Origin: Steinernema hermaphroditum
Taxonomy: Eukaryota; Nematoda; Chromadorea; Rhabditida; Steinernematidae
DNA length: 64,000 nt
NCBI GenBank assembly: GCA_030435675.1
Contig: CM059625.1
Span: forward strand, 6,014,001 to 6,078,000
Direction: 5' to 3'
Shown here: positions 20,472-21,997 of the stretch, one piece after another
How the letters are laid out: each line of letters begins with the position of its first letter
How positions within the stretch are numbered: the first letter of the stretch is position 1
Notes under the pieces: generated by a model
Told to the model about the DNA's origin: nothing
The model's database searches: none
Seen by the model: only the letters and a program-made list of their open reading frames with translations
Position numbers and translations under genes: made by a program

Positions 20472-21997
20472 ATGGATCTTTTGCAAAAAGGATGGTTCAC
20501 TGAATTCTCACCCGATGACTTGGAACGCATCAAGCAATCCTGTATGTTTGTTAATGCGTAAAACATTATTCGGAATTTATACTCATTGATACAACATAAG
20601 TCATTTTTATTTATTATTACAGCCGATGGATCAGCAAAGCAATTGAAGTCCGACGGAGAGGACATGGGAGGTGCCTGGCCGGGACAAGCATTTTCCTTGC
20701 AAATCGAAGAAGTTCTTTTCCACGAAAAGTCTCTCTACCAAGATGTTTTGGTCTTTAAAAGGTGTTAGAATATTAATGCGCCATTTGCTCACATAGTATT
20801 TTAGCAAAACTTACGGAAATGTTCTCGTCCTGGATGGAGTAATCCAGTGCACGGAGCGTGACGAGTTTGCCTATCAGGAAATGCTCGCTCATCTGCCCAT
20901 GTGCGCCCATCCCAACCCCAAAAAGGTTCTCATCATCGGAGGTGGTGACGGAGGAATCCTCCGCGAAGTTCTGAAGCACGACACTGTCGAGCACGTTACG
21001 ATGTGCGAAATCGATCAGATGGTCGTCGATGTGTCGAAGAAATACCTTCCACATATGGCCAAAGAGTTCGGAAACCCAAAGTTGAACCTCTTCATCGGCG
21101 ACGGATTCGAGTTCCTCAAGGCGCACAAAAACGAATTCGATGTTGTTATTACGGATTCGTCCGACCCAGTGGGACCTGCTGAGAGTCTCTTCGGCAAATC
21201 GTACTATCAACTCCTCAAGGAAGCTCTTCGCGACGGAGGCGTTCTTAGCTCCCAAGGTACTATCTTTTTGGAAGTTTTTCTGATAGGCGTACCACATCAC
21301 ACATTCAACATGCAGGAGAGTGCCCTTGGATCGACCTCGATCTGGTGCGGCATATGATGGCGTTCTCGAGGGAACTGTTCAGCACAGTTCGCTACGCGAC
21401 TGCTTCAGTTCCCACTTACACAACGGGTACAATGGGATATTTACTCTGCTCGAATGAGGTACATACAATGCACGGCCTTTTCATTGCATGCGTAGCTTCG
21501 CTTAATTTTAACGCAGTATACTAACCATATAACTTCGGTAGTCGTTGTCCCACTAACGCTTGCTGTGTAAATTTATAGGAGAATGCATGTGGCTTCATCG
21601 GGACCTGATCGCTCATATGGTTCGCTTCAACAAAACGATCTTCCCGTCAGTTCAGTACGCCTCGGCGGCCATGTCTACGTATCCCTCCGGAACCATGGGA
21701 TACCTTCTTGCTTCGACTTCCGTAAGCTTGTGTAGAACTATAACCCACTTCCGCACATTCACACACCACTCAACACACACTTTTCTCCTAACAACAATTT
21801 TACAGGAACGCGATCTTTCCATTCCTTCGCGTACTTTCACTGACGACCAGATCGCATCTATGGGACTACGTTTCTACAACTCCGATGTCCATCGTGCGGC
21901 ATTTGTTCTCCCACAGTTCATGAAGGAGGTACTATAACACTTAATTCCAACAGTGATACGACAAGCTTGTCTTTAGGCCCTTCAAAAGTCGGCGTAA
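20472..21997 (+). CDS. spds-1: spermidine synthase with two alternative fourth exons
   Basis: Exons 20472-20541, 20623-20761, 20805-21256, then either 21316-21458 or 21579-21721, then 21806-21928 and 21977-21997. Either choice gives 315 residues, near the 302-residue human and about 314-residue C. elegans enzymes. The enzyme transfers aminopropyl from decarboxylated SAM to putrescine in the cytosol. Visible motifs: [26 protein letters not shown], the dcSAM loop IIGGGDGG (about 113-120), [10 protein letters not shown], and the catalytic [13 protein letters not shown] (Asp187, Asp190). The alternative exons encode residues 221-268, the GECxW helix and the substrate-side T-Y-x-x-G strand. The last exon adds only ALQKSA; reading through its donor would instead stop after two codons. 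Confidence 0.95.
21316..21458 (+). other. spds-1: spds-1 alternative exon 4A
   Basis: A 143 bp exon with a CAG acceptor and GAG|GTACAT donor. It starts in phase 1 and ends in phase 0, and encodes [11 protein letters not shown], then [17 protein letters not shown] at its end. It retains the GECxW helix and the tyrosine of the T-Y motif (about 255), but has TYTTG where most spermidine synthases have TYPSG. About 24 of 48 residues equal those of exon 4B. Confidence 0.85.
21579..21721 (+). other. spds-1: spds-1 alternative exon 4B
   Basis: A 143 bp exon with a TTATAG acceptor and TCC|GTAAGC donor, with phases identical to exon 4A. It encodes [14 protein letters not shown] and then [16 protein letters not shown], closer to the GECQWLHLDL and TYPSG of animal spermidine synthases, so it is probably the ancestral form. 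Confidence 0.88.

Follow-up and report, generated by a model that had tools for sequence, protein, structure and literature searches.

Nematodes splice certain homologous exons in a mutually exclusive manner. The closest parallel to the locus considered here is coq-2 of Caenorhabditis elegans and other rhodoquinone-makers, in which exons 6a and 6e are homologous, equal in length and exclusively used in the message for a biosynthetic enzyme (PMC7434440; this and the other articles cited by PMC number are drawn on through part of their text). In egl-15 (exons 5A/5B) and unc-32 (exons 7a/7b), the choice between exclusive exons is switched by the RBFOX proteins ASD-1 and FOX-1 via UGCAUG elements in flanking introns (PMC3585155), and a genome-wide prediction counts 389 C. 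elegans exons as mutually exclusive (PMC3923563). Here, we describe an exon pair in the spermidine synthase gene spds-1 of Steinernema hermaphroditum, which lies in a window of 64,000 nucleotides (nt) taken from assembly GCA_030435675.1 (contig CM059625.1, denoted C5 below, positions 6,014,001 to 6,078,000). Very probably, spds-1 carries an ancient mutually exclusive exon pair that would serve as a splice switch between two aminopropyltransferases.

The two alternative exons are adjacent on the forward strand. Exon 4A (21316-21458) and exon 4B (21579-21721) each measure 143 nt, open one base into a codon (G|GA), close with a complete codon and are separated by the 120-nt intron 4 (21459-21578). 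Their acceptors read CATGCAG|G (4A) and TTTATAG|G (4B), and their donors GAG|GTACAT and TCC|GTAAGC, respectively. The exons share 77 of their 143 nucleotides and 23 of the 47 encoded residues, and chance likeness is excluded by BLASTP (E = 1e-18, 35 positives among 45 positions). Because 143 is not divisible by three, double inclusion and double skipping both break the reading frame: joining 4A to 4B leads to a stop after residue 277, 9 codons beyond the end of 4A and 236 nt upstream of the last junction, and skipping of both exons to a stop after residue 232, 85 nt upstream of that junction. Either exon alone, with the last exon included, affords a protein of 315 residues. The locus thus combines adjacent homologous exons of equal length and phase with both-or-neither forms that are non-productive. 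Messages with premature stops of this kind are expected targets of nonsense-mediated decay, and their removal would leave exactly one segment in the useful protein. An earlier first-pass annotation of this DNA had already proposed such a pair; its exon coordinates, lengths, phases and splice sites proved exact on re-check, and its further statements (about half of the residues shared, a stop within about ten codons upon joining, a broken frame upon skipping of both, a 315-residue enzyme from either exon) are all reproduced by the gene model.

The remaining parts of the gene, likewise on the forward strand, are exon 1 (20472-20541, coding from the ATG), exon 2 (20623-20761), exon 3 (20805-21256), which encodes the Rossmann core with the DSSDP catalytic loop and ends in ...SSQ(G), the 59-nt intron 3 (21257-21315), whose donor is common to 4A or 4B splicing, the 84-nt intron 5 (21722-21805), exon 5 (21806-21928, ERDLSIPSR...PQFMKE) and exon 6 (21977-21997, ALQKSA followed by the stop). 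The Pfam profile PF01564 matches exon 3 with 210 bits and 4A and 4B with 28.9 and 25 bits, and this profile match together with the modelled fold places the product in the PF17284/PF01564 aminopropyltransferase family. The C. elegans gene we take to be Y46G5A.19. Spliced through 4A, the model reproduces record P0004 (315 residues) letter for letter, and spliced through both exons it equally reproduces P0005 (277 residues); both records are filed as QR680_001135 of S. hermaphroditum.

The two exons represent segment types that recur across nematodes. A-type segments read ECPW[LI]D..PTYT and B-type segments ESxWLH..[SP]TYP, the labels being assigned by the ECPW[LI]D motif; 4A belongs to the former, and 4B is of the B type also found in the crystallised C. 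elegans enzyme (2b2c). Searching with 4A as query gave 18 proteins and with the N-terminus 63, nematode wherever a species was named; a profile search matched 7937, of which the best 120 were covered, and 127 records were retrieved in all. Both types occur, judging from these database protein records, in 15 further nematode species: C. elegans, C. remanei, C. japonica, C. bovis, Mesorhabditis spiculigera, M. belari (A partial), Haemonchus placei, H. contortus (A partial), Angiostrongylus cantonensis, Panagrellus redivivus, Halicephalobus, Aphelenchus avenae, Strongyloides (A cut short), Parascaris univalens and Dracunculus medinensis. Both motifs stand in a single record in 10 of the 127, and A comes first in all ten. 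In S. glaseri and S. carpocapsae, 4B can be inferred since the tails of records P0008 and P0010 (ENACGFIET and ASACGFTVA) resemble what the beginning of the window's 4B encodes when read out of frame (ENACGFIGT). Absence of the pair from sister species, which had been named at the outset as evidence against it, is thus not what the protein search found. From Plectus and Romanomermis, only B was seen among protein records, the comparison being confined to these and not extending to the genomes themselves. A second, divergent Halicephalobus sp. record (P0073, FO519_008388), present besides the two-type record P0022, carries an A-like segment (IESPWIDM..TPTYIS) and is possibly an A-only paralogue.

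Some of these proteins are filed with one segment only. Clean one-segment pairs exist for Panagrellus (P0035/P0038), Parascaris (P0048/P0049) and M. spiculigera (P0045/P0046), and the Aphelenchus isoforms are already filed, unremarked, as 'SPDS-1 a' and 'SPDS-1 b'. Complete one-segment open reading frames from other nematodes lie on contigs of ~1-1.3 kb, namely P0012, P0043, P0076 and P0079 for A, and P0023-P0034 and others for B. Since the gene has several introns in the S. hermaphroditum genome, these short contigs are read as spliced transcripts. Long reads from Litoditis marina are reported to show differential transcript usage of spds-1 upon acid stress (PMC13405938).

The relationship of the segments was analyzed in an alignment of 90 rows (36 A, 40 B and 14 outgroup), built from 79 of the 127 records, some with two segments, and both window exons. 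The window exon 4A and P0004 are identical in sequence and count as two rows; twelve records (P0012, P0013, P0043, P0063, P0067, P0072, P0076-P0079, P0085 and P0087) are taken as nematode by similarity; and the outgroup consists of 12 named animals, one further record and one plant. The 48 records outside the tree comprise 11 Panagrolaimus-like JGI records, three Steinernema double-inclusion products, short or partial records, O. flexuosa P0014, the motif-missed P0080, P0089, P0092 and P0101, the partial A of M. belari (P0036), and 26 other hits, non-nematode or unnamed. The alignment likewise omits the partial A of H. contortus and contains the Strongyloides A row in shortened form. In the resulting tree, all 36 A rows fall on one side of a branch with support of 100/96 that recurs in 100% of 200 bootstrap trees. 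Inner forks are weak because the segment provides only ~48 columns, and B and the outgroup do not each emerge as one cluster. Across 14 species, a segment is closer to the same type in other species than to the other type within its own species in 343 of 364 comparisons, with mean identities of 0.57 (A/A), 0.62 (B/B) and 0.44 (within-species A/B). A-type segments are present in what we take to be Spirurina (Parascaris, filariae, Gnathostoma, Syphacia, Dracunculus), Tylenchina (Steinernema, Strongyloides, Panagrellus, Aphelenchus) and Rhabditina (Caenorhabditis, strongyles, Mesorhabditis). The segment sequences suggest that the duplication probably predates the split of these three suborders, such that the A and B types would have diverged before the lineages separated; a single duplication before that split, followed by losses, is the simplest reading.

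The exchanged segment aligns with residues 207-254 of the human enzyme SRM, including Glu208 and Tyr241. Human numbering is used in the following, with segment position 1 corresponding to 208 and the alignment anchored by Glu208, Gln206 and Tyr241 as given in PMC12812037, from which the roles of these residues and of Asp173-Ser174 are also taken: in the human enzyme, Tyr241 contacts the attacking amine and Glu208 faces the pocket when ligand is bound. The DSSDP motif (Asp173-Ser174) is encoded in exon 3, common to both forms, and 4A and 4B each supply a Glu208 and a Tyr241. Moreover, these two residues are invariant (76/76 each) throughout the A and B rows, 12 of the records being nematode by similarity. 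A structural model of the A-form chain P0004 has a mean predicted local distance difference test score (pLDDT) of 90.6 and a predicted template modelling score of 0.91, with 10-residue block means of 85-96 over the segment, and human 2o06 and C. elegans 2b2c are among its best structural matches (root-mean-square deviation 1.2-1.5, template modelling score 0.84-0.88 by query length). In this model, the A segment forms a helix (224-241), a strand (244-251), a loop with Tyr255 (equivalent to human Tyr241) and a second strand (259-266). The first-pass annotation had placed the exchanged segment in the active site, which agrees with the position of Tyr241 and Glu208; its assignment of TY(P/T)(S/T)G to a strand lining the amine pocket needs correction, as these residues (252-258) are modelled as a loop between strands.

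The immediate surroundings of Tyr241 differ between the types. All 14 outgroup rows read P-T-Y-P and thus have both Pro239 and Pro242, unlike most A or B segments. Among the A rows, P-T-Y-T prevails (25/36), followed by P-T-Y-P (8/36; seven filariae and the Logan record P0012) and one each of P-S-Y-T, P-T-Y-A and P-T-Y-I, and the B rows are divided into S-T-Y-P (26/40) and P-T-Y-P (14/40). Position 242 is therefore Thr in 26 of 36 A rows versus Pro in all 40 B rows, and position 239 is Ser in 26 of 40 B rows versus Pro in all 36 A rows. Of the 14 species for which both types were compared, 13 carry Thr242 in their A segment and 12 carry Ser239 in their B segment. Each duplicate hence tended to lose a different proline beside the catalytic tyrosine (P242T in A, P239S in B), as far as the alignment indicates. 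All seven filarial species in the tree, a group in which only A was seen, have Pro242; the proline pattern is a correlation over few independent events, and the filarial change counts as one. Further differences concern position 213, which is Asp or Glu in 36/36 A and His in 40/40 B rows (partly circular, since the labels used these positions), and position 210, which is Pro in A, differs in B and likewise helped to define the labels. Asp213 is not unique to A and also occurs in T. cruzi and two octocoral records. These octocoral proteins (P0074 and P0075 from Paramuricea and Dendronephthya; 573 and 572 residues) are of near-double length and carry an A-like GECPWLD beside PTYP, and this motif is thus also found outside nematodes. 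Presumably, the amine-side pocket has been retuned beside Tyr241 and at the start of the next helix (210 and 213).

Both products would be active aminopropyltransferases. Most likely, the A enzyme still makes spermidine from putrescine, with altered kinetics, product inhibition or stability. The pathway partners are at hand: genes of the S-adenosylmethionine decarboxylase and ornithine decarboxylase families match in the genome. The spermine synthase N-terminal domain PF17950 (SpmSyn_N) has no match above the cut-off genome-wide (best 16.8 bits versus 25). Spermine synthase has reportedly been lost from almost all nematodes (PMC12803844), and spermine was undetected in C. elegans (PMC6780408). 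Since the domain falls below the cut-off and its loss in nematodes is reported, a second product of the A form is possible but unsupported: the A exon might change the product or acceptor (spermidine, cadaverine or another amine) and in part replace the lost spermine synthase, with B as the putrescine aminopropyltransferase, a proposal that we regard as unlikely. If it were correct, one of the two activities would have been lost in one-exon lineages such as the filariae (A only seen, and bearing Pro242). Elsewhere in the genome, PF01564 yields five weak matches of 35-48 bits (C1:16657372-16660588, C2:13615008-13633194 and C5:18257061), four of them in two clusters; these loci are divergent aminopropyltransferase-like or methyltransferase genes.

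A number of observations weigh against an ancient switch between two enzymes. When the tree was rebuilt without the ECPW[LI]D and Tyr241-flanking columns, because the labels came from that motif (a version that also lacks P0073 and both P0007 segments), the A rows stayed together, but support fell to 87/64, with the group recurring in 90% of 200 bootstrap trees. Filariae show A only (8/8 species) and cyst nematodes B only among the records retrieved, and therefore both types may not be essential everywhere. A B-only S. hermaphroditum protein is absent as a record of its own; the predicted B-only chain differs from P0004 at 24 of 315 residues and could sit inside the 90% cluster of P0004, which has 4 members. 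The part of the L. marina study consulted is silent on which spds-1 isoforms changed (PMC13405938). Finally, out-of-frame double-inclusion products are filed in S. hermaphroditum, S. glaseri and S. carpocapsae (P0005, P0008 and P0010), given which 4A-4B joining may indeed occur. Such joining could amount to regulated unproductive splicing, in which the 4A-4B message is destroyed to tune the enzyme level, one single-exon protein is the workhorse and the other is incidental. The stop in the window, well upstream of the last junction, would suit this mechanism, and FOX-1 is known to drive non-productive splicing of xol-1 in C. elegans (PMC7787662). Yet, a poison exon needs no conserved catalytic segment, whereas Glu208 and Tyr241 are retained in every A and B row and 4A shows purifying selection (see below), and the filariae and cyst nematodes indicate that each type can be the sole segment. 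We therefore hold this explanation to be improbable.

A different account starts from the records that contain both segments in frame. If both exons were normally included in some nematodes, a duplicated-segment enzyme such as the 366-residue C. elegans record P0058 would result, and comparable records exist for C. remanei (P0057), C. japonica (P0060), Angiostrongylus (P0052), Haemonchus placei (P0044), Halicephalobus (P0022), Aphelenchus (P0003) and Dracunculus (P0070), as well as, with A shortened, for Strongyloides (P0007) and H. contortus (P0041). However, double inclusion is out of frame in the window, and the linkers in the A+B records vary strongly between genera, many looking like read-through of the A donor (..KV.., ..EV..), as would be typical of gene predictors. 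In addition, P0058 is modelled with a mean pLDDT of 73.7 and block means of 31-64 over its A copy, compared with the far better A-only model of P0004 (the two runs used different alignments), which fits one segment per working enzyme, and the crystallised C. elegans enzyme contains B only. A tandem-segment enzyme is thus very improbable, and exclusive use of the two exons remains the favored interpretation.

The segments could also be unequal in another sense, with 4A or 4B being a decaying leftover of exon duplication that is rarely used and functionless. Within Steinernema, 4A evolves faster than the rest of the protein: identity to S. glaseri is 41/47 for 4A versus 250/266 for the rest, and to S. 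carpocapsae 34/47 versus 245/266. Its acceptor CATGCAG is moreover the poorest of six in the gene, matching 4 of 7 positions of what we take to be the TTTTCAG consensus. A direct comparison of 4A with 4B is uninformative, since synonymous sites are saturated and the ratio of nonsynonymous to synonymous divergence (dN/dS) is undefined. A yardstick is provided by a partial spermidine synthase copy on C4 (minus strand, 15039230-15041026 within locus G000:C4:15037500-15043500, L017), in which exon 2 is represented by its end, exon 3 is open, a 4A-like exon extends over ~31 codons and an exon 5 is present. Against this copy, dN/dS amounts to 0.09 for 4A (dS 1.8, 31 shared codons), 0.03 for exon 3 and 0.11 for exon 5, and because of the low value against the paralogous fragment, 4A is considered to have evolved under protein-level constraint. 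The elevated ratio in one exon that would have signalled decay is thus not seen for 4A. The C4 copy itself is probably a truncated pseudogene that once bore an A-type exon; in its 6-kb locus, no exon 1, exon 2 start, 4B or Tyr241 part was seen, and its candidacy as a dedicated A-only gene was rejected for lack of exon 1, the exon 2 start and the Tyr241 part. Considering also that A-type segments occur in all three large rhabditid suborders, that the filed full-length protein uses 4A and that the crystallised C. elegans enzyme is of the B type, decay of either exon is highly unlikely.

If the two exons are indeed exclusive alternatives, the choice between A and B would be made by splicing, most likely per tissue or physiological state. 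Intron 4 is the longest intron of spds-1 (others 43-84 nt) and every site is GT-AG, and therefore crowding and spliceosome incompatibility are unlikely explanations of exclusivity. A candidate RBFOX-type element, UGCAUG, is located upstream of 4B in intron 4 (21485-21490, forward strand), and a second sense match lies near the start of exon 4B itself (21584-21589, forward strand), where it encodes a Cys-Met pair absent from most B rows. The pair is a post hoc observation, and UGCAUG occurs in the window at chance level (34 found versus 37 expected). The Fox-1_C profile PF12414 gave no match above the cut-off in the S. hermaphroditum genome, for which reason an RBFOX RNA recognition motif was used as query instead; it identified a gene with an RBFOX-like motif of this kind at C5:10038919-10039182, in two adjacent matches (78% over residues 1-41 and 68% over 40-73). 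UGCAUG in the intron preceding egl-15 exon 5B mediates repression of that exon by RBFOX proteins in C. elegans (PMC3585155), and by analogy an RBFOX-type factor would be predicted to repress 4B and thereby favor 4A, which is plausible but weakly supported. Pairing of intron 3 with intron 5 (-16.9 kcal/mol) was considered as a separate means of enforcing exclusion and is unconvincing: 51 of 2000 shuffles were as good (0 of 200 in a smaller first run), and once the three intron pairs tried are corrected for, none of them is conspicuous. The window contains no Rfam match.

Two further features of the window may be mentioned. On the minus strand at 22220-23000, a downstream neighbor gene lies tail to tail with spds-1 and by eye resembles what we take to be an Snf7/CHMP2-type ESCRT-III protein. 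The region 30215-34508 holds direct repeats that are almost identical (99.6% over 895 bp and 99.7% over 1003 bp), along with copies of 194 bp, and these represent either a recent tandem duplication or an assembly duplication; they adjoin exons with SNase domains, which are presumably Tudor-SN-like.

Spermidine is of considerable interest in C. elegans, where it is linked to hypusination, fasting-induced autophagy and lifespan, and desiccation survival (PMC12803844, PMC11392816, PMC3853187). The searchable papers on spds-1 treat it as one enzyme, and if there are two conserved active-site versions, what has been deduced from the crystallised B form may cover just half of the biology. Term searches of open full texts gave no description of a spermidine synthase exon pair, the search not extending to supplementary files and subscription papers, including the crystal-structure paper; the initial statement that no such case had been described therefore survives, although the isoforms exist as unremarked database records. 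Among searchable papers naming spds-1, only the L. marina study mentions its isoforms, without describing them in the part seen (PMC13405938); the main text of PMC12803844, as consulted, has neither 'alternative splic' nor 'isoform', and the consulted text of PMC3853187 applies 'isoform' to other proteins only. The genome-wide list of exclusive C. elegans exons may include the spds-1 pair (PMC3923563).

The S. hermaphroditum enzyme shares its fold and catalytic residues with human SRM (2o05-2o07, 9q41), and its orthologue is C. elegans SPDS-1 (2b2c), which carries a B-type segment and, when matched structurally, is 62% identical to the A-form model. The chain crystallised from C. elegans is the B form; the A segment of this species is contained in record P0058, and no report on it was found. 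The reciprocal loss of prolines and the retention of Pro242 in filarial A, whose B partner was not found among the records, single out specific residues. With regard to control, the egl-15 motif is situated upstream of the repressed exon, as is the element at 21485 relative to 4B, regulation being proven in the former case and a motif match in spds-1 (PMC3585155). The consulted main text on coq-2 does not contain the terms spermidine, spds or polyamine, and coq-2 encodes an unrelated enzyme with exons of 134 nt rather than 143 nt; moreover, removal of its e-exon abolishes almost all rhodoquinone synthesis (PMC7434440). As in coq-2, the exchange in spds-1 would remodel the enzyme core near the substrates, one exon type resembles that of animals without the switch, and the arrangement is conserved, among helminths in the case of coq-2 (PMC7434440). 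Hence, the kind of system is already known from the coq-2 precedent, and the spds-1 pair is a new, unusually old and widespread case, by which spds-1 joins coq-2 as a core metabolic enzyme gene in which nematodes exchange an active-site exon.

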